Below, piece by piece: positions 2,858 to 59,430 of a stretch of 64,000 nt of DNA. Every line of letters starts with the position of its first letter. The first letter of the stretch is position 1. The notes beneath the pieces were generated by a model, which did not search any database, had not been told where the DNA came from, and saw nothing but the letters and a program-made list of their open reading frames with translations. The translations under genes were made by a program, and so were the position numbers. This DNA comes from an uncultured Clostridia bacterium. Its GTDB lineage: Bacteria; Bacillota; Clostridia; Oscillospirales; Acutalibacteraceae. The stretch covers positions 1 to 64,000 of the forward strand of contig CAMLSX010000004.1 in the NCBI GenBank assembly GCA_946484175.1, in the 5' to 3' direction.

Positions 2858-4047
2858 ATGTTTATGGGATTGGTCTTTGTTTGGTCTTTATTATTTTCAA
2901 TTGCACCAGCGATCACGTCAACTGCCGCGGTTTTTAGCTGGTCAATTTCATGGCTATATATGTTGAGAGTGGTGGAAGGCTTTGCGTGGCCAAGCACCGC
3001 CGAAACGGTTCTGACGTCAATCCCAGAGCCGATCATCTGGGTAGCCGCAAAATGCCGGAAGGCATGAAGACCATAAAACGGGATCTGATATGCTTCACAC
3101 CATCGGTTCATCCAGTTATACATAGAGGAGTTTCCATGGAAATCCCCGCCGGAAGAAAAAACACGGTCTCCGGCCTTCCAGGCATCTCCCAGCGCCAGAC
3201 GCTCTTCCGATTGGATTTTCCGAAAACCTCTCAGTTCGCAGAGCAAAGTATCAGGCAGCTTGATCGTTCGGATAGAGGCTTTTGTTTTTGGGGTGTCTGT
3301 GTAGGTTCCGGCCTCCACCGTATGGCCCACAGCCCTCTGTAAATTCCATGTACCGTTGGTAAAGTCAATATCCTGCCATTCCAGCCCCAGTGCTTCTCCT
3401 TTACGGCAGCCGGTATAAGCCAGAAACATGGCAAACAGGCGCCGAACCGGCGGAGCCTCTTCCAGTGTGCGTAAAAGATGCTGCACTTCTTCCAGGGAAT
3501 AACATTTCCGTTCAGACTTGGGCGCTCCCAGCACTCGTATTTCCCTGCATGGGTTAGCCGGGATAAGATCCAGCTCTACCGCATAGGACATGGCAGCAGA
3601 CAGGAAAGAGAGGTAGTGCCGGATGGATTTGGCGGACAGCTTTTTGTCCTCGTTTCGCCCCTTGTCGCTGATACCGTTTTCTGAAAGCCGATAAATAAAC
3701 GCCTGGACATCCCGGTGCGAGATTTTATCTAGGCGCATATGCCCCAAATATTGATAGACCCGCTTTGTCAGCTGGCGGTATTTTGTCCGGGTGCTTTCTT
3801 TAAGAACGTGATCCACCCGCTCTTGAAAAAATCGCTCGATAAACGGTTCCAACTTTATGGAGGATGCAGAACTGCTGCCTTCTTCAAACAGCACAGCCTG
3901 CCGGTTCAGCTCCTTTTCAATTTGCCGTGGTGTCATTCCCGGAGAAGGTCTCCAAGTCATGGAACGGACTTTCTGCTTTCCATGGGCGTCATATCCATCT
4001 GACACACGGATGCGGTAACTCTCGCCACGTTTTGTAATTGTAGCCAT
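2827..4047 (-). CDS. Tyrosine recombinase / phage-type integrase
   Basis: A 406-aa protein. The N-terminal arm-binding part (MATITKRGESYRIRVSDGYDAHGK) is followed by a SAM-like core-binding domain (about 65-165) and a catalytic domain. Visible catalytic residues are Arg in AYTGCRKGEALGLEW, HAFRHFAATQM (HxxR), GHAKPSTT, and the C-terminal Tyr in LNIYSHE. It catalyses site-specific integration and excision. Its stop codon is 26 nt from the tmRNA CCA, the classic position for an integrase that targets ssrA. The start ATG 4047 has AAAGGTGG upstream. The gene looks intact. Confidence 0.93.
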   Translation of the reverse strand: MATITKRGESYRIRVSDGYDAHGKQKVRSMTWRPSPGMTPRQIEKELNRQAVLFEEGSSSASSIKLEPFIERFFQERVDHVLKESTRTKYRQLTKRVYQYLGHMRLDKISHRDVQAFIYRLSENGISDKGRNEDKKLSAKSIRHYLSFLSAAMSYAVELDLIPANPCREIRVLGAPKSERKCYSLEEVQHLLRTLEEAPPVRRLFAMFLAYTGCRKGEALGLEWQDIDFTNGTWNLQRAVGHTVEAGTYTDTPKTKASIRTIKLPDTLLCELRGFRKIQSEERLALGDAWKAGDRVFSSGGDFHGNSSMYNWMNRWCEAYQIPFYGLHAFRHFAATQMIGSGIDVRTVSAVLGHAKPSTTLNIYSHEIDQLKTAAVDVIAGAIENNKDQTKTNPINIKKESTENSA

Positions 4048-4074
4048 AAAAAAATACCACCTTTCAGGTATGAC

Positions 4075-4104
4075 TTGCCAAGCCTACCCCGGAAGTGGTA
4101 TAAT
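4075..4104 (+). promoter_or_regulatory. Promoter-like sequence opposite the exonuclease 3' end
   Basis: TTGCCA (4075-4080), an 18-bp spacer and a perfect TATAAT (4099-4104) lie on the plus strand between two minus-strand genes. There is no plus-strand ORF downstream, but a terminator-like hairpin with a T-run follows at about 4156-4193. Confidence 0.5.
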
Positions 4105-5285
4105 CACATTGGTTTGGATGGGATTATTCCATGATGGAGTAAGCTCGTTCTATTGCCGCTCGTTCCTGCGCCAACAGGAGCGGGCGGTTTTTTATTGTCA
4201 GGTTTATTGTTTAAAGCATTTTCTATCAATAATATAAATTCTTTTTCTGTGATAATCTGCAACTTTCCACCTTTATCAAGAAACTCTTTGGCTTTTAGGT
4301 ATTTTCGTTCCAAAGCCCATTGTGGTAAGTTTGCCAATTCACCAGCTACTAAATAATCAGTATTGCGGTTTACTTGAGGACGAAGGTTAGCACCTACTTT
4401 TTCCAATTCTTCTTGCAACTGATCGCGGTCATTTTCAAAGTCCCCTGTAAATACAAAATTTTTCTCAAGTAGCGGCGACCATTTAAATGCAATTGCTTTT
4501 TCGGCTTTTTTTCGTTCTCTTTCTATTTTGCGCTCCGCAAGTTCTTTTTTGTACGCATCCATAATGGCTATACGACATAATTCAAACAGTTTTGCCGTTA
4601 ATTCAACATCTTCTAGTGCGCGATGAGCTTGAGAGTTCGAAATTTTTAAATTGGTAACAAGGTCTACCAATTTATAACTCGCCAAACCTGGGAAAGCACG
4701 TTTTGACAGAGATACCGTATCAATATATTCGATTACCAAATCTTCCTGTTCTTGTGGGATTGCACATCCCAGAAAGCCTAAGTCAAACGAAACGTTATGG
4801 CCTATAATTAGGTTTCTGTCAATAATACGCAGAACGTCAGACAAAACAGTTTCGATAGTGGGAGCGTTGGCAACATCTTCATTTGTTATGTGATTTACAG
4901 CACTTGCTGCAGGAGATATTGGAATTTGAGGATTTATCAGAGAACTAAACCTGTTTATTTCTTTTCCGTCCCTATAGTGAATAACTGCAATCTCGATAAT
5001 TCGATCATTACTACGGCTGAAACCAGTGGTTTCAACATCCAAAACAACATATTCTCTTATTGTTTCTAAATCTTTTGCCGTAAAAATTTTTTTAGGAGTT
5101 GCCTCGATTTTACTATGTGTAATTTTGGCAGACGAAGTATCCGCAGGACTGTTTGCAATAGATATTACACGAAGGGTTTCCTCAAGAAGTTTGTTTCCCT
5201 TGGTAGTTGTTTCGATTTTATTGCATATAGGTCTTACGGAAGGAAGTTTTTCTTTTTTGCCAAATAATCGTTTTAGAAAATTCAT
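4104..5285 (-). CDS. DEDDh 3'-5' exonuclease with C-terminal BRCT domain
   Basis: A 393-aa protein. The N-terminal 70 residues are low-complexity. An exonuclease domain of the DnaQ/PolC epsilon type follows: YVVLDVETTGF (ExoI, about residue 77), GHNVSFDLGFL (ExoII) and AHRALEDVELT (ExoIII, DEDDh). A basic coiled segment (AERKIERERKKAEKA) leads to a BRCT domain (NFVFTGDFENDRDQLQEELEKVGA). Its likely role is DNA repair or processing in the mobile element. The start at 5285 (MNFLKRLFG) has GAGGGA 5 nt upstream. It lies between the integrase and the repressor and shares their strand. Confidence 0.8.
   Translation of the reverse strand: MNFLKRLFGKKEKLPSVRPICNKIETTTKGNKLLEETLRVISIANSPADTSSAKITHSKIEATPKKIFTAKDLETIREYVVLDVETTGFSRSNDRIIEIAVIHYRDGKEINRFSSLINPQIPISPAASAVNHITNEDVANAPTIETVLSDVLRIIDRNLIIGHNVSFDLGFLGCAIPQEQEDLVIEYIDTVSLSKRAFPGLASYKLVDLVTNLKISNSQAHRALEDVELTAKLFELCRIAIMDAYKKELAERKIERERKKAEKAIAFKWSPLLEKNFVFTGDFENDRDQLQEELEKVGANLRPQVNRNTDYLVAGELANLPQWALERKYLKAKEFLDKGGKLQIITEKEFILLIENALNNKPDNKKPPAPVGAGTSGNRTSLLHHGIIPSKPM
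4110..4193 (+). ncRNA. Candidate small RNA antisense to the exonuclease 3' end
   Basis: This lies between the TATAAT at 4099 and a GC-rich hairpin (CCGCTCGTTCCTG against CAGGAGCGGGCGG) followed by TTTTTT. The predicted transcript is about 80-85 nt, noncoding, and overlaps the last 30 codons of the exonuclease-BRCT gene on the other strand. The promoter and terminator are seen; transcription is inferred. Confidence 0.35.
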
Positions 5286-5322
5286 TATATTCCCTCGTTT
5301 CAATTGGTTGTTTCAAGATGAA

Positions 5323-5697
5323 TCAACCTACCTCTGTTTCCCCCTCGGAAACGGGATCACATTTTTTATATTTGGGCATATATGTAAGGCTTTCCGCCTG
5401 ATCTGCCAGTTGCTGCTGGCCGGCCTCGTTCAACTGGTGATAGTTTTCTATAATATCATCCAGCCGCTTGTCCCCTGTATCCGCTTCGGCGGGTGCGGGG
5501 GATTTTTCTATTCCCAGTATGTAGTCGGTGGTCACGTTGTAATATTTGGCCAACGCAACAATAGAATCTGACCCCGGCTCTCGACTTCCAGTTTCATACC
5601 CATAATATGTGGTGTATTTCATTCCCATTTCTTCCGCAAATTTTCGTGCGCTCATACCGTTTTTTTCACGGAGCGCTCGGATTCTATCACAAATCAC
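5323..5697 (-). CDS. XRE-family repressor of the integrative element
   Basis: A 124-aa protein with an N-terminal Cro/C1-type HTH (ICDRIRALREKNGMSARKFAEEMGMKYTTYYGYETGSREP, residues 2-41) and a charged C-terminal region. I chose the GTG at 5697 because AAAGGAGGG lies 5 nt upstream; the track start (5727) precedes the ribosome site. It diverges from a second XRE gene across an interval with three matching 17-bp operator-like palindromes, the architecture of a phage-type CI/Cro switch. It probably represses both promoters. Confidence 0.85.
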   Translation of the reverse strand: MICDRIRALREKNGMSARKFAEEMGMKYTTYYGYETGSREPGSDSIVALAKYYNVTTDYILGIEKSPAPAEADTGDKRLDDIIENYHQLNEAGQQQLADQAESLTYMPKYKKCDPVSEGETEVG

Positions 5698-5754
5698 GGT
5701 ATCCCTCCTTTTGAAATTATTATACATCTTGTTTCCTTTTCAGTCAATAGAAAT

Positions 5755-5771
5755 ATTCGCAAAATGCGTAA
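5755..5771. promoter_or_regulatory. Operator-like site O1 (ATTCGCAAAATGCGTAA)
   Basis: An imperfect 17-bp palindrome in the divergent interval between the two XRE genes. It lies closest to the minus-strand repressor and is related in sequence to O2 and O3. Confidence 0.6.
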
Positions 5772-5789
5772 ATTGCTTTTCAAAAAGGC

Positions 5790-5818
5790 TTGATATATAC
5801 GCAAAACGAGAATATAAT
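5790..5818 (+). promoter_or_regulatory. Rightward promoter with operator O2 in the spacer
   Basis: TTGATA at 5790-5795 and TATAAT at 5813-5818 are separated by 17 bp. The spacer holds O2 (ATACGCAAAACGAGAAT, 5797-5813), so repressor binding would occlude RNA polymerase. Confidence 0.65.
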
Positions 5819-5829
5819 ATAGTCACAAC

Positions 5830-5846
5830 ATTCGCGATACGCGAAT
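5830..5846. promoter_or_regulatory. Operator-like site O3 (ATTCGCGATACGCGAAT)
   Basis: A perfect 17-bp palindrome just downstream of the rightward -10 box and 18 bp upstream of the Cro-like start codon. It is the best copy of the three repeats. Confidence 0.65.
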
Positions 5847-5863
5847 ATATTGGAGGTGACACG

Positions 5864-6079
5864 ATGAAATACCCTAATATCGAAGCAGAGAGAGCCCGTT
5901 ATAACCTTACACAGGCAGAGTTAGCGGAAAGCCTTTCTGTGTCCAGAGCCACCTATAAGAACTGGCAGAGTGGCAGAAGCGAAATTCCCGGTTCACAAAT
6001 TATCGCCATGACCAAGCTCTTCGGTGTGTCGTCCGATTACCTGCTTGGCCTCACCCAACATGAGCCGAAGCCGGCGTAA
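5864..6079 (+). CDS. Small XRE-family (Cro-like) regulator
   Basis: 71 aa, essentially one HTH domain (RYNLTQAELAESLSVSRATYKNWQSGRSEIP) plus the common tail ITKLFGVSSDYLLGLT-like (here MTKLFGVSSDYLLGLT). The ATG at 5864 has TGGAGGTGAC upstream, which excludes the longer track ORF from 5609. Divergent from the larger repressor, it is probably the Cro-like partner or excision activator of the element. Confidence 0.85.
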   Translation: MKYPNIEAERARYNLTQAELAESLSVSRATYKNWQSGRSEIPGSQIIAMTKLFGVSSDYLLGLTQHEPKPA

Positions 6080-6095
6080 GAAAGGAGGAATAACC

Positions 6096-6284
6096 ATGTG
6101 GGTTTCAAGGAAAAGGTTTAAGGCCTTAGAGCAGCGCGTGGAGAAGCTGGAAGAGGATACATCTCGTCCGCATTTCGTGTTAACTTCCGAACACGGACCG
6201 AAAACAGTTGCGTGGTACATCAGGTTTTTTTCCGCAAACATAAAAGACGACCCCAGCAAAAAACTGAGGTCGTGGGGGGGTTAG
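6096..6284 (+). CDS. Small element-encoded protein, unknown
   Basis: A 62-aa protein, MWVSRKRFKALEQRVEKLEED..., with a short predicted coiled coil at residues 7-20. The ATG at 6096 has AAAGGAGGA upstream and lies 16 nt after the Cro-like gene, so it is probably in the same operon. It is the kind of short ORF found early in phage and ICE operons. Its stop overlaps the stop of the convergent 6281-6463 gene by 4 nt. Confidence 0.55.
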   Translation: MWVSRKRFKALEQRVEKLEEDTSRPHFVLTSEHGPKTVAWYIRFFSANIKDDPSKKLRSWGG

Positions 6285-6463
6285 TCAAGTGCTTCCTCTA
6301 TGATTTTTGCCAGTTCCGAAATAGCGTAAAAAGTCATAGTGGAAAGCCTTGAGAGATCAGCAACTGTGGCAGGCTGTGTCGAATCATCCTCAAAGATGGC
6401 CATATCTTTTCGATAGTTTTCAACAAGCTGTGCCAACTGAGCTGAACATTCAGGTTTTTTCAA
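6281..6463 (-). CDS. Small hypothetical protein, TTG start
   Basis: 60 aa, mostly helical (AQLAQLVENYRKDMAIF; TMTFYAISELAKIIEEALD). The TTG start has an excellent AAGGAGGTGATGAT upstream on the minus strand. No function is recognised. It is convergent with the preceding small gene inside the element. Confidence 0.5.
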   Translation of the reverse strand: MKKPECSAQLAQLVENYRKDMAIFEDDSTQPATVADLSRLSTMTFYAISELAKIIEEALD

Positions 6464-6579
6464 ATCATCACCTCCTTCCTGTCTTATTATAACGCGTACA
6501 TAGTGGGAAGGAAAGCGTAAACACCCCGAGCCGAAACCAGCATAACAACCGCCGTATGGCGGGGAAAGGAGAAGAAGAT

Positions 6580-6855
6580 ATGGGAAGATTTTTTGCCCCC
6601 GATTTTGGGGAACTGGAAATTACGCCTTTTTATTCAGATAATGAGATCTATTGCCAAGAAGTACGGTTTTCTGTTCCGTATGACCGATGGCCTGAATTTG
6701 AAAGGTCACCGGAGTTCCAGCGGATAAAGGAATTGGCCGCTGAGTTAAAAGCTCAATATAAAAAATTTCAGTATCCCGAGCCGGAACGCGAATTGGCAGA
6801 CGAGCAGATATGCTGTACAGCGGAACCTACATCACAAGCGGCACTTGCAAAATGA
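6580..6855 (+). CDS. Element-encoded small protein whose 3' end is fused out of frame to ATPase DNA
   Basis: The predicted start is ATG 6580 (MGRFFAPDFGELEITPFYSD) behind AAAGGAGAAG, giving 91 aa. The first roughly 72 residues look like a genuine element protein ending FQYPEPERELADE. From about nt 6795 the DNA encodes a P-type ATPase in another frame, so the last 20 residues (ICCTAEPTSQAALAK) are a read-through of foreign sequence. It is therefore probably truncated. It marks a deletion junction. Confidence 0.5.
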   Translation: MGRFFAPDFGELEITPFYSDNEIYCQEVRFSVPYDRWPEFERSPEFQRIKELAAELKAQYKKFQYPEPERELADEQICCTAEPTSQAALAK

Positions 6856-8864
6856 TTGTTACATCTGTCGGCGGCGCAACCGAATTTGGCACGATTGCAA
6901 ACAGCCTGTCCGGTGAAGAAACCGCACAAACACCGCTGCAGGAAAAGCTGGCCAAACTGGGAAAGAATATCACGATTCTTGGCGTGATTGCGGCGGCGAT
7001 TGTCTTTATCTCCCAGCTGATTTCTTTTGCTCTTCACGATGGACTCATTCTGGATGAGATTATCGAGGCATTTGTCACCAGCATCGTGCTGATTGTTGCG
7101 GCTGTCCCTGAAGGGCTTCCCACCATCGTGGCTGTTTCCCTCTCTATCAATATCATCAAACTGTCCAAAAAGAACGCGTTGGTGAAAAAGATGATCGCTT
7201 CCGAGACGGTTGGCTGCATCAATGTTATTTGTTCGGATAAAACTGGAACGCTGACGGAAAATAAAATGAAAGTCCAGGCTTTCTACGACGGGCAATTTCA
7301 CAAGGATTGTTCTGAACTGTCCGATCAATATTTTATCCAAAACATCTGTATCAACGCTACGGCAGATTTGGGCGCAGAAGGACAATTCATCGGGAACCCC
7401 ACGGAATGTGCCATGCTGCGGTTTTATGAAGAATCCGGCGTATGTAAGACAAGCGGGAAATCATACAAACAAGAGCGGGAGAGCTATCCGGTCATTCAGA
7501 CATTCCCCTTTAATTCCGACCTGAAGCACATGACCACCATAGCGGAAATCGGCGGCAAAATGGTAGCCTTTACCAAGGGCAGCCCCGAAGCAATCCTCTC
7601 CATGTGCGCTGTTTCAAAGGAAAGGCGGAAAGAAGCAGAAGAATATATCGTTTCAGTACAGCAGCAGGCCATGCAGGTCATTGCCTTTTCCCATAAAGAG
7701 CTTTCAGAACAACAGGATTATGAAGCTGAGCACCATCACCAGGCCATGGAAAGCGGCATGATCTTTGACGGCTTTGTGGCCATTGCCGACCCGCTGCGCA
7801 AAGAGGTGTACGATGCAGTCCGAACTTGCGAAGCAGCCGGGATTGAATTGAAAATCCTCACCGGCGACAATATTGTCACCGCTGCCGCCATTGCCAACGA
7901 ACTGAATCTGCTGGAAAACGGCAAATTCGCAGTTGAAGCCCGGGAAATCGCGGAAATGACCGATGAAGAACTCAGCCGCAGATTAGATTCTATTTGTGTT
8001 ATTGCCCGCAGTACGCCCAGCATTAAAATGCGTGTGGTGCGGCTCTTGAAGGCAAAAGGAAATGTAGTTGCCGTTACCGGCGACGGAATCAACGATGCAC
8101 CTGCTCTGAAAAATGCGGATGTGGGGATAGCCATGGGCATTTCCGGAACCGAAGTATCCAAAGAGGCCAGCGATATTGTCCTTCTGGATGATTCTTTTGC
8201 TACAATCGTAAAAGCAGTGGAATGGGGCCGTAATATCTACGAAAATTTCAAACGTTTTATCAGTTTCCAGCTGACGGTGAACTTCGCTTCAGTCGTGGTG
8301 GTATTTGTATCCATTCTGATGGGTCTTAAAGCACCGTTTACAGCTTTGGAGCTTTTATGGATCAACATTATCATGGACGGTCCGCCGGCACTCACTCTGG
8401 GGCTGGGACCGAACTATAAAGACCTGATGAAACGCAAGCCCACCCGTAGAGAAGAAAGTATCATTTCAAAGGCAATACTTTTGCGGATCGGGTTGACCGG
8501 CACTTATATTTCCGTTGTATTCATATGTCAGTATGTGTTTAATTTTCTGGGTGCAGCTCTCGATGAACAGGCTACCGTTCTGTTTACACTGTTTGTCCTT
8601 TTCCAACTGTTCAACTCGTTTAACTGCCGGGAATTGCACAGCGAAAGCATTTTAAAGCATCTGCTGCGAAACAAAATCATACTCTGGGTGGTTGGAGCAA
8701 CCTTTGTCTTGCAGATCGTGTTCATCCAATTTGCGGGAGCATTTTTCGGAACGGTTCCGCTGGGAATCACCATGTGGCTTAAACTGTTCGGGGTTGCTTT
8801 TAGTATCATTGTTCTTTCAGAAATTGTTAAGCTGGCATATCGTACTGCAAAGAAAAAAACATGA
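6801..8864 (+). pseudogene. Calcium-type P-type ATPase lacking its N-terminal third
   Basis: The residual ORF (684 aa from ATG 6810) starts MLYSGTYITSGTCKM, which in full-length PMCA/SERCA-like pumps (about 880 aa) lies at the end of the actuator domain. TM1-2 and the TGES loop are missing. Still present are ICSDKTGTLTENKM (phosphorylated Asp, about residue 142), FTKGSPEAIL (nucleotide site), TGDGINDAPALKNADVGIAMG, and the C-terminal membrane helices including NIIMDGPPALTLG. Without the actuator domain it cannot cycle, so it is probably nonfunctional. There is no good ribosome site before 6810. The 5' side is joined to element DNA, suggesting deletion after integration. Confidence 0.85.
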
Positions 8865-56618: not shown

Positions 56619-56628
56619 ATATATAGCA

Positions 56629-56667
56629 AAAACCGATGTGTAGTCAACAGACCCCACATCGGTTTTT
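56629..56667. terminator. Bidirectional terminator between APH-like and nrdD loci
   Basis: AAAACCGATGTG / CACATCGGTTTTT with T-runs readable on both strands. Confidence 0.9.
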
Positions 56668-56677
56668 AATTTTCATT

Positions 56678-56731: not shown

Positions 56732-56899
56732 TTATTTGCTGATGGTGTGCTTTACGCGGTCACGCTCTTCAGCACGCTTTGCGTTGTTCCAACGGTCGGT
56801 GGTGCCAACCAGATATCCGGTGATGCGGCGGATACGCTCAAATCCTACGCCCTCGCCAATTGCCTTTTCTTCGTTGTGGTTTCTCATCTCAGTCATCAT
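56732..56899 (-). CDS. Separate glycyl-radical C-terminal peptide of class III ribonucleotide reductase
   Basis: A 55-aa gene not in the track: MMTEMRNHNEEKAIGEGVGF, ERIRRITGYLVGTTDRWNNA, KRAEERDRVKHTISK. In full-length NrdD proteins this sequence is the C-terminal end, with the glycyl radical Gly inside RRITGYLVGT. The preceding nrdD ORF (56956-59271) ends in QYHCDC and lacks it. A strong AGGAGGAAACG precedes ATG 56899, and the frame differs from nrdD, so this is an independently translated gene 56 nt downstream. It is the missing radical module of the enzyme, by inference an associating subunit. Confidence 0.88.
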   Translation of the reverse strand: MMTEMRNHNEEKAIGEGVGFERIRRITGYLVGTTDRWNNAKRAEERDRVKHTISK

Positions 56900-56955
56900 C
56901 GTTTCCTCCTTGGCATTTTTTATTTCAAAAGTTTATCATACAAGTTATTGTGTTC

Positions 56956-59271
56956 TCAGCAGTCACAATGATACTGCGGAACATTGGGGTATTTCTTGCG
57001 CAGCTCATCCAGCTTTTCGCGGCTGACGGACTCTCCTGCACGGCGTCCGCAGCGGGGGCATACCTCACCGATAATACCGTTGTAACCGCAAATCGGGTCG
57101 CGGTCTACCGGATGGTTCACGGAACCATAACCGATTCCGGCTTCCTTCATGCAGCGGATGACGCTCTCAAATGCCTCCAGATTCTTGCAGGCATCGCCGT
57201 CCATTTCAACATAGCTGATGTGGCCAGCGTTGGTCAGAGCATGATAGGGGGCTTCCAGCTGAATCTTGCGGTATGCACTGATGGGGTAATATACCGGAAC
57301 ATGGAAAGAGTTGGTGTAGTATTCGCGGTCGGTTACGCCGGGAATCTTGCCGTATTTTTCTGCGTCAATCCGGACAAACCGTCCGCTCAGACCCTCGGCA
57401 GGAGTTGCCAGCAGGCTCCAGTTCAGGCGGGTCTTTTCAGATTCATCGTCCATGCGCTTGCGCATGTGTCCGATAATCTCCAGGCCCAGCTTCTGGCTTT
57501 CAGCGCTCTCGCCGTGGTGCTTGCCGGTGAGCGCTTTCAGCGTCTCTGCCAGGCCGATAAATCCGATGCTGAGTGTACCGTGCTTCAGCACTTCAGCCAC
57601 CGTATCCTCGCGGCCCAGCTTTTCAGAGTCAATCCACACGCCCTGTCCCATCAGGAAGGGATAGTTGTAGACCTTCTTGCTGCACTGAATCTTAAAGCGG
57701 TGCAGCAGCTGTTCGATTACCAGATCAATCCGGCTGTCAAGCAGCTCGTAGAATTTTTTAATATCGCCCTTGGCTTCAATTCCAAGGCGGGGCAGGTTAA
57801 TAGAAGTAAAGCTCAGGTTGCCGCGGCCACAGGTAACTTCGCGGTTGGGGTCATAGGTGTTGCCCATCACGCGGGTACGGCATCCCATATAAGCGACTTC
57901 GCTGTCATAGTCGCCGGGCTTGTAGTATTGCAGGTTAAAGGGAGCATCCAGAAAACTGAAGTTGGGGAAGAGTCGCTTGGCAGAAACCCGAATTGCCAGC
58001 TTGAACAAATCATAGTTGGGGTCTCCGGGATTGTAGTTGATGCCTTCCTTGACCTTGAAAATCTGCACCGGGAAAATGGGGGTTTCACCGTCGCCCAGAC
58101 CGGCCTCGGTAGCCAGCAGCAGATTACGGATGACTATTCTGGCTTCGTCGCTGGTGTCGGTGCCATAGTTCAAAGAGCTGAACGGTACCTGTGCACCGGC
58201 GCGGGAGTTCATAGTGTTCAGGTTGTGTACCAGTGCTTCCATTGCCTGATACGTGGCGTTGTCGGTCTCATCCCAGGCAGTATCGCAGGCATAGCGGTGT
58301 GCTGCCTCAGCAGTCTGTGCATAAATCGGCTGATAGCCGCCCTGCTGCTGGTGAAGCGGCAGGTACTGTACCAGACGCTTGCCGTATTCTTTGGAATCCT
58401 TCAGAGTGATATCGGTTCCCAGATCGTTTTTAATGGCCTCTACCAGCGCTTTGGCATCGCTTGCAGAAAGAGCTTCGTGCAGCTGCAAATACTGTGCCAG
58501 TGCCTTAAAGTATAGCTTGCGGTAGGTTTTTGCCACACCGGGAGCCATACAGCAATCGAAATTGGGGATACTCTGGCCGCCGTGCATTTCGTTCTGGTTC
58601 GCCTGAATGGCGATACAGGCCAACGCCGAATAGCTGCGGATGTCATTGGGCTCACGCAGATAACCATGACCGGTTGAAAAACCGTTGTGGAACAGCTTGA
58701 GCAGGTTGATCTGGCAGCAGGTCTCGGTCAGTGCATAAAAGTCCTTGTCGTGAATATGGATGTCACCATTCTGATGTGCTTCTGCAATCTCTTTGGGGAT
58801 GACATATTCATCATAGAAAGCCTTGGCGCCCTCAGAGCCGTACTTGAGCATGGTACCCATAGCGGTGTCTGCGTCAATGTTGGCGTTTTCGCGCTTCAAA
58901 TCCACATCGGCGCTGGGACGGAAGGTCAGGTGCTCATAAATCTTCATCAGGTTGGCGTCCATCTCGCGCATCTTCTGATGTTCGGCGCGATACAGGATAT
59001 AGGCCTTGGCGGTTTTGGGAAGGTCAAATTCAATGAGCTTTTCCTCTACCGTATCCTGTACCTGTTCTACCGTGGGAATAATTCCGGCTTCATCGTATAC
59101 CGCTACCACCAGCAGGGTGATCTCATCCAGCTGTTCGTCAGAAATCTTCTCGCCGCTGATGTGGGAATTTGCCTTGAAAATTGCATTGCGGATCTTATTG
59201 GAATCAAACGGGACTTGCGTTCCGTTCCGTTTGATAATGGTTTTTACATGACTTTTTTTCTGCTGAACCAA
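56956..59271 (-). CDS. nrdD: Anaerobic ribonucleoside-triphosphate reductase NrdD, main part (no glycyl-radical tail)
   Basis: A 771-aa protein. N-terminal ATP-cone (VKTIIKRNGTQVPFDSNKIRNAIFKANSHISGE) is followed by the catalytic barrel (QNEMHGGQSIPNFDCCMAP; RAGAQVPFSSLNYGTDTSDEARIV; AYMGCRTRVMGNTYDPNREVTCGRGNLSFTSINLPRLG). It ends with a zinc region GYNGIIGEVCPRCGRRAG and tail REKLDELRKKYPNVPQYHCDC. The usual C-terminal RRITGYLVGT glycyl-radical segment is absent and is encoded separately downstream. It reduces NTPs anaerobically. TTG 59271 is the start, 10 nt after AGGAGG. No nrdG activase is in the window. Confidence 0.93.
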   Translation of the reverse strand: MVQQKKSHVKTIIKRNGTQVPFDSNKIRNAIFKANSHISGEKISDEQLDEITLLVVAVYDEAGIIPTVEQVQDTVEEKLIEFDLPKTAKAYILYRAEHQKMREMDANLMKIYEHLTFRPSADVDLKRENANIDADTAMGTMLKYGSEGAKAFYDEYVIPKEIAEAHQNGDIHIHDKDFYALTETCCQINLLKLFHNGFSTGHGYLREPNDIRSYSALACIAIQANQNEMHGGQSIPNFDCCMAPGVAKTYRKLYFKALAQYLQLHEALSASDAKALVEAIKNDLGTDITLKDSKEYGKRLVQYLPLHQQQGGYQPIYAQTAEAAHRYACDTAWDETDNATYQAMEALVHNLNTMNSRAGAQVPFSSLNYGTDTSDEARIVIRNLLLATEAGLGDGETPIFPVQIFKVKEGINYNPGDPNYDLFKLAIRVSAKRLFPNFSFLDAPFNLQYYKPGDYDSEVAYMGCRTRVMGNTYDPNREVTCGRGNLSFTSINLPRLGIEAKGDIKKFYELLDSRIDLVIEQLLHRFKIQCSKKVYNYPFLMGQGVWIDSEKLGREDTVAEVLKHGTLSIGFIGLAETLKALTGKHHGESAESQKLGLEIIGHMRKRMDDESEKTRLNWSLLATPAEGLSGRFVRIDAEKYGKIPGVTDREYYTNSFHVPVYYPISAYRKIQLEAPYHALTNAGHISYVEMDGDACKNLEAFESVIRCMKEAGIGYGSVNHPVDRDPICGYNGIIGEVCPRCGRRAGESVSREKLDELRKKYPNVPQYHCDC

Positions 59272-59401: not shown

Positions 59402-59430
59402 ATTATAATACAACATCTTGTGCCTGTAAA
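59402..59430 (-). promoter_or_regulatory. Promoter of nrdD with NrdR-like box
   Basis: On the minus strand TTTACA (59430-59425), a 17-bp spacer, TATAAT (59407-59402). The spacer contains GCACAAGATGTTGTAT (59423-59408), similar to the ACACAATATATTGTGT-like NrdR box consensus. Confidence 0.6.

Follow-up and report, generated by a model that had tools for sequence, protein, structure and literature searches.

Can a class III ribonucleotide reductase (RNR) keep its radical glycine on a separately encoded protein? RNR is essential, and in the textbook class III enzyme the radical glycine is part of the catalytic chain. RNR reviews and phylogenies, in the portions accessible to us, likewise place it within the NrdD chain. 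The window, which is the whole 64,000-nucleotide stretch of DNA that was analysed, has a different arrangement: a large NrdD reading frame (hereafter the body) without a glycyl-radical loop, and a short reading frame (the peptide) that encodes such a loop on its own.

Genome organization of the nrdD locus

The features of the locus are collected in Table 1. Pfam matches the body to positions 1–537 of the 562 in PF13597 (NRDD; E = 6.9e-191) in addition to the ATP cone, and the NCBIfam model PRK07111 matches it with 1073 bits against a cut-off of 764. The TTG start is taken from the ORF list, and where translation really begins is uncertain. Modelled with AF2 from an alignment of 47 split bodies, the body has a mean pLDDT of 84.9 and falls below 50 only at both ends and in one loop; in a Foldseek search with this model the top solved match is the Prevotella copri (P. 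copri) NrdD 8p23 (E = 1.9e-48).

Table 1. Positions of features at the split nrdD locus in the window.
Feature	Position	Strand	Basis or remark
Promoter-like TTTACA-17-TATAAT, upstream of body	59402..59430	-	Consensus match only
NrdD body, 771 aa	56956..59271	-	ATP cone, 10-stranded barrel, zinc finger; without glycyl-radical loop
ATP-cone domain	58975..59241	-	Body residues 11–99; PF03477, E = 2.8e-21
Cys464 codon (MGCRTR)	57880..57882	-	Aligned to thiyl-radical Cys416 of P. copri NrdD
Zinc-finger segment HPVDRDPICGYNGIIGEVCPRCGR	57043..57114	-	Body residues 720–743
28-residue body tail RAGESVSREKLDELRKKYPNVPQYHCDC, replacing radical loop	56959..57042	-	ORF translation
Shine-Dalgarno AGGAGG of peptide gene	56905..56910	-	5 nt upstream of ATG
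Glycyl-radical peptide gene, 55 aa	56732..56899	-	Pfam, 8p23 alignment, purifying selection
Gly28 codon, expected radical glycine	56816..56818	-	Aligned to P. copri Gly711

In the P. copri enzyme, Cys416 is the thiyl-radical residue and Gly711 the radical glycine (PMC11226230, accessible in part). Cys464 of the body is invariant in 47 split bodies (alignment A2, from which L074 was excluded), as are the zinc-finger residues C728, C738 and C741; the motif CPxCGR is present in all 88 of 88 split bodies, from which zinc binding is inferred on sequence alone. The body therefore meets the class III RNR criteria of an NRDD family match, a barrel thiyl cysteine and a C-terminal zinc finger, but not that of a radical glycine on the barrel chain, this glycine being on the separate ORF.

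The first-pass annotation had claimed that the large protein ends without the glycyl-radical sequence, and that a radical glycine of its own would refute the split. The translation, which ends in KKYPNVPQYHCDC, and the Pfam match, which stops at 537 of 562, both agree with the claim, and neither gives the body a glycyl-radical loop. No further NrdD match was found in the genome of the window (G000), which is 61.5% complete. The same annotation placed the radical sequence in a short downstream ORF, in a different frame and with a Shine-Dalgarno (SD) site of its own, and this is confirmed: the peptide ATG is 56 nt from the body stop with a frame offset of 2, an AGGAGG precedes it, and the translation includes FERIRRITGYLVGTTDRWNNAKRAEERDRVKH.

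Pfam assigns the peptide to positions 533–562 of PF13597 with a score above the gathering threshold (E = 1.4e-8). Body and peptide thus jointly span the whole family, a complementarity that no chance ORF would show. The peptide profile matches the C-terminus of the solved 8p23 structure (E = 5.4e-14) and, weakly, the T4 NrdD 1h78 (E = 0.24). Gly28 of the peptide falls on the radical Gly711 in the 8p23 alignment, where an offset of 4 between the 8p23 chain and the numbering of the paper was counted by hand. Only PF13597 is reported for the peptide by Pfam at E up to 1, without a match to the PFL-type Gly_radical family PF01228.

The spacer between the ORFs consists of 56 nt with an SD, is variable in relatives, and includes no intron, intein or endonuclease; within the genus the SD of the peptide is retained while the spacer length varies. 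A scan for terminators at the locus gave nothing above chance. By eye, there is a near-perfect inverted repeat, AAAAACCGATGTG...CACATCGGTTTTT, at 56625–56670, between the peptide gene and a converging gene on the plus strand; it is a possible two-way terminator, with a loop that exceeds what the terminator scan allows.

Conservation of the two genes in relatives

A PF13597 search of 60 relatives finds the same split in 4/4 same-genus genomes (G001–G004) and in G006, G010, G015, G035, G039, G048 and G052. Laboratory-grown species with a split NrdD include Agathobaculum massiliense (L037) and Scatolibacter rhodanostii (L060). In the split relatives the body match stops at 531–542, and a separate match to 533–562 is found in a nearby short frame; in G003, body and peptide are on different contigs, both at contig ends. 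A peptide scan of genome contigs, in which 80 loci of 559 relatives were kept, gives the peptide as a short stand-alone ORF in all 80/80, in most of them directly after a body without a radical loop. Since these loci were retrieved with the window peptide including its own N-terminus, the short form is over-represented among them. The check put forward in the first-pass annotation, that relatives should have RRITGYLVGT-type peptides in short ORFs downstream of a main NrdD that lacks them, is thus passed widely.

Body–peptide pairs numbered 87 from the 97 loci tested; five loci have no pair within the locus or contig (L036, L054, L106, L115, L116) and the search pattern missed five others (L062, L096, L100, L109, L111). 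The peptide is in relative frame 0, 1 or 2 in 34, 36 and 17 pairs, respectively, and the gap ranges from 0 to 284 nt with a median of 29. An SD match of at least 4 nt is present upstream of the peptide in 86/87 pairs, compared with 1458/11351 background ATGs, although picking the best-SD start among in-frame candidates favours the former count. In the nearest relative, Candidatus Gallacutalibacter pullistercoris (L033), the peptide is 100% identical, with an identical CDS, and the spacer is 54 nt rather than 56 nt, which alters the relative frame between two strains that are nearly identical. The peptide core has dN values of 0.012–0.063 and dS values of 0.76–1.31 within the genus, and both body and peptide are, judged by their substitutions, under purifying selection.

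Could an ordinary NrdD simply have been halved by a recent frameshift mutation, by decay into a pseudogene or by an assembly error? The initial sighting of the split was in a single bin, 61.5% complete, but it recurs in many independent assemblies and genera, and a broken gene fits neither the SD in 86/87 pairs, nor the purifying selection on both pieces, nor the unlinked pieces in a single-contig genome and the repeated fused/split changes on the NrdD tree described below. We give this explanation practically no chance and reject it, the conservation data having already refuted it; the argument of the first-pass annotation against a simple frameshift mutation stands, on the independent assemblies and the SD count. 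A second possibility is that programmed frameshifting or stop readthrough fuses both ORFs into one chain, as the distance of just 56 nt in the window could allow. Frame and gap vary freely, however, the spacer shifts by 2 nt between near-identical relatives with the peptide unchanged, the SD of the peptide would serve no purpose in a joined chain, and unlinked genes cannot be joined at all; with the variable frame and gap, the SD and the unlinked cases against them, frameshifting and readthrough are rejected as highly improbable.

Ribonucleotide reductase repertoire and gene linkage

A class I/II large subunit (PF02867) went undetected in 12/12 split genomes searched and in 13/22 further genomes, 11/14 controls being positive; the 9/22 further genomes that do have a match imply that the split enzyme is not the sole RNR everywhere. 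When the PF13597 and PF02867 results are combined, split NrdD is the sole RNR found in nine genomes, each at least 95% complete (G035, G039, G052, G204, G218, G277, G344, G483, G500), and there, barring an RNR of an unknown kind, the task has to fall to the pair. The single contig of G483 has the body at 1467010 and the radical protein at 1038106, approximately 430 kb apart.

The gene order nrdD–peptide–nrdG is found in G006, G010, G035, G048 and G052, and nrdG directly follows the peptide also in L169, L170, L173, L190 and L195–L197. In the genome of the window (61.5% complete) no NrdG scores above the cut-off; NrdG is present in G001–G004 (in G004 just below the cut-off), where its gene adjoins a dead NrdD paralog and not the peptide. 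This second NrdD-like gene adjoins nrdG in 4/4 same-genus genomes, G001–G004 (L130, L279–L282); its product has lost the thiyl cysteine (MGCR to QGNN or QGND), is without zinc finger and radical loop, and has a pN/pS of about 0.16–0.22. This conserved pseudo-NrdD beside the activase, whose role is unknown, might assist the split enzyme as a partner or regulate it.

That the split body retains its catalytic residues, and together with a separate radical protein is the sole RNR found in nine genomes at least 95% complete, also weighs against a reading in which the peptide is merely a repair spare part or regulator and the body a pseudoenzyme or one that uses another radical residue. We consider this reading unlikely, while acknowledging that the genus has its dead NrdD paralog, that stand-alone radical proteins are found beside intact fused NrdD (L164, and 11/67 genomes of the order by hand count; see below), and that non-glycine radical enzymes exist in the GRE family (PMC11528403, accessible in part).

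A proposed two-chain class III RNR

We favor the interpretation that body and peptide form a functional, obligate two-chain class III RNR, with a probability of about 0.9; the complex, the radical and the activity are inferred, and there are no expression data. The split, its conservation, the selection on it, its status as sole RNR found in several genomes and the unlinked cases are read directly from genome sequences, which support split NrdD well, and the enzyme is untested at the bench.

The 771-aa chain would supply nucleotide regulation, the substrate site, the thiyl-radical cysteine and the zinc finger, and the 55-aa chain would be the radical subunit, with its FERIRRITGYLVG loop entering the barrel beside Cys464 like the C-terminus of an ordinary NrdD. 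NrdG is predicted to take a hydrogen from Gly28 of the peptide, either free or bound, after which the radical would move from Gly28 to Cys464 as in fused NrdD. Such a model, with the radical on a peptide that docks in the barrel, is the simplest given a body without a radical store, a peptide without a catalytic site, the conservation of both, and their being the sole RNR found. O2 cleaves glycyl radical enzymes at the glycyl radical (PMC3019208, PMC8683613, both accessible in part). Because the O2-cleavable glycine is on a peptide that costs little and is not covalently attached, damage by O2 should be confined to that peptide, and the body should then accept a new copy, the exchange being inferred.

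If the enzyme is obligately two-chain, the glycyl radical could be generated, examined and exchanged on a peptide of 55 residues, and the two-chain form suggests a route for strict anaerobes to survive brief O2 exposure. An essential enzyme for anaerobic DNA building blocks is apparently in two pieces in many related gut bacteria, with the oxygen-fragile part in principle replaceable alone. Annotation of these loci requires caution, as split bodies can be labelled as complete NrdD, or the peptide overlooked.

Relation to known systems

The literature searched, which included an exact-phrase search without hits and sources accessible only in part, and which left most subscription papers out of scope, did not describe an NrdD split in this way. 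The scanned family libraries have fused NrdD models only, and each piece matches these partially. ATP-cone class III NrdD (P. copri 8p23; PRK07111) shares with the split enzyme the ATP cone, the barrel, the MGCR cysteine, the zinc finger and the sequence of the radical loop, but there the loop and C-terminal tail are covalently attached, whereas the window has a separate 55-aa chain.

The parallel drawn in the first-pass annotation, to GrcA/YfiD of E. coli, holds as a functional analogy, and in some relatives an intact NrdD is even accompanied by a separate radical protein of the NrdD type, which is how a genuine spare part would be arranged. GrcA/YfiD and Y06I of phage T4 are small stand-alone glycyl-radical proteins for a large barrel enzyme and, like the NrdD peptide, are encoded by hosts and phages (PMC8683613, accessible portion). 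GrcA/YfiD differs in belonging to the PFL family rather than the NrdD family, in repairing a fused enzyme after damage where the window peptide is the only copy, and in its length of 127 aa, compared with about 55 aa and a short variable N-terminus in the peptide. Supplementing an enzyme that has a glycyl-radical domain of its own, as GrcA does, is a criterion that the window peptide fails, since the body lacks such a domain and the incomplete genome shows no further NrdD match, and that other stand-alone proteins, such as L164 and L126, satisfy. According to the available text of PMC8683613, YfiD and Y06I are the only validated spare parts, and further ones may exist for other enzymes of the glycyl radical type.

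The class II RNR NrdJa/NrdJb of Pseudomonas aeruginosa also has its catalytic chain as two proteins, but it is of a different class, and its second chain is an IscU-like plus zinc-finger region and not the radical site (PMC4520616 and PMC9669993, as far as accessible). In phages phiAS4 and 949, nrdD occupies more than one ORF; the breaks are sporadic and due to introns, inteins, homing endonucleases or unknown events, and the accessible part of the source describes no conserved boundary before the radical loop (PMC3653736).

Stand-alone radical proteins and evolution of the split

In the order to which the window belongs, 67/147 genomes have this type of radical domain, with 32 having stand-alone forms only, 11 both forms and 24 fused forms only. 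These counts were made by hand with frames shorter than 200 aa taken as stand-alone, and thus possibly include a few contig-edge fragments (e.g. G273). The short stand-alone form, that of the window, comes after a body with an odd tail. A longer form of about 85–110 aa has an N-terminal domain of its own, predicted as a beta-alpha-beta-beta domain with a model pLDDT of about 85, the radical part being at about 50; low values for the lone radical part would fit folding upon contact with the body, though a shallow alignment could by itself cause them. A PDB fold search with the model of the longer protein gave no significant match (best E = 0.16).

The longer form is found in genomes with intact fused NrdD, at L164 (nrdD–radical protein–nrdG) and L125–L128, and such proteins are candidate spare parts; in G287, G306, G320, G344, G378, G483 and G502 it provides the radical domain that the body lacks. 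Some bodies paired with the longer form end almost precisely at the radical glycine, for example L188 in CPHCGRSENEVEFERIHRITE and L187 in CERIPRIKV, each directly before the stop, and look like a genetic copy of the O2-cleaved enzyme. A single body can be accompanied by several radical peptides, with two each in G204, G218 and G251 and three in G255.

Several other arrangements are seen. In L106, from an Anaerostipes MAG (G513), a short radical peptide is directly before nrdG with no NrdD body nearby, and two fused NrdD of about 724–732 aa are elsewhere in that genome. L129 (G023:C17) has, in an apparent mobile element, an NrdD-type radical loop within a 192-aa frame, followed by an unrelated C-terminal part. 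Genomes with another NrdD subtype also encode stand-alone radical proteins (L177–L182), here with RVRRITGYLSTVDRFNDAK-type loops, which suggests that NrdD spare parts are not confined to this lineage.

Compared with natural peptides, 44/105 tails of relatives' bodies are similar at p < 0.05, as are 21/105 compared with natural fused domains; these tests are not independent, as the tails are mutually related. The tail of the window body has no detectable similarity to the radical domain by either comparison (p = 0.51 and 0.945, respectively). Sequence similarity thus supports the tail as a putative decayed radical domain in some lineages (L111, L119, L188 and others), and not in the window.

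The NrdD-body tree (131 rows) requires nine fused/split changes, seven of them forced by supported branches, and the nesting of the fused L009 in a split clade makes re-fusion likely. A single clade of split bodies, and with it a single origin of the split, is rejected (AU p = 1.2e-54, under the model used). The trees are quick ones (LG+G4) with bodies of at least 700 aa, or at least 440 aa for the fused/split changes and the AU test, and some long branches meet, so that the number of events is approximate. As to origin, we infer that lineages with a separate NrdD radical protein, kept as a spare part, would repeatedly have lost the built-in copy or let it decay, with occasional re-fusion; this account of spare parts and exchange has about even odds of being correct.

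Searches of phage and plasmid sequences

The repeated origin or reversion of the split, its unlinked cases and the presence of the peptide in phages all go beyond the first-pass annotation. An IMG/VR scan with the peptide kept 80 of 99 relatives, and these loci comprise 49 short stand-alone forms, 27 fused forms and four missed by the pattern; 41/49 of the stand-alone loci have neither an NrdD body nor nrdG in the available stretch. Neighboring genes (10 proteins, five loci) code for DnaB helicase, primase, DNA polymerase, dCTP deaminase, endolysin and integrase, and by such neighbors at least L209, L212, L237 and L244 look like phages or prophages. Some IMG/VR loci may be host DNA, and L210 looks like host.

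By analogy with T4 Y06I and PFL, we infer that phage peptides may recharge the host enzyme, and the peptide is a very small phage-borne candidate for an auxiliary gene in nucleotide supply. More broadly, the class III RNR of anaerobic Bacillota in the gut may be modular, with an exchangeable radical peptide, hosts having between one and three peptide genes for each body, related lineages in which stand-alone NrdD radical proteins serve intact NrdD as spare parts, repeated capture of a spare part with loss of the built-in copy so that it becomes an obligate subunit, and phage peptides that recharge or boost the host body; we could as readily be wrong as right about this broader scheme.

A plasmid search returned 26 records and, among the matches listed, these are mostly from C. 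difficile and annotated as anaerobic ribonucleoside triphosphate reductase. In Eggerthella phage EL753P1 (OP172808; L278), nrdD at 3700–7130 has an apparent intein at the catalytic cysteine; the body is without a radical loop, and there is a separate downstream radical piece, with the frame broken between FERIRRI and TTGYLTG.
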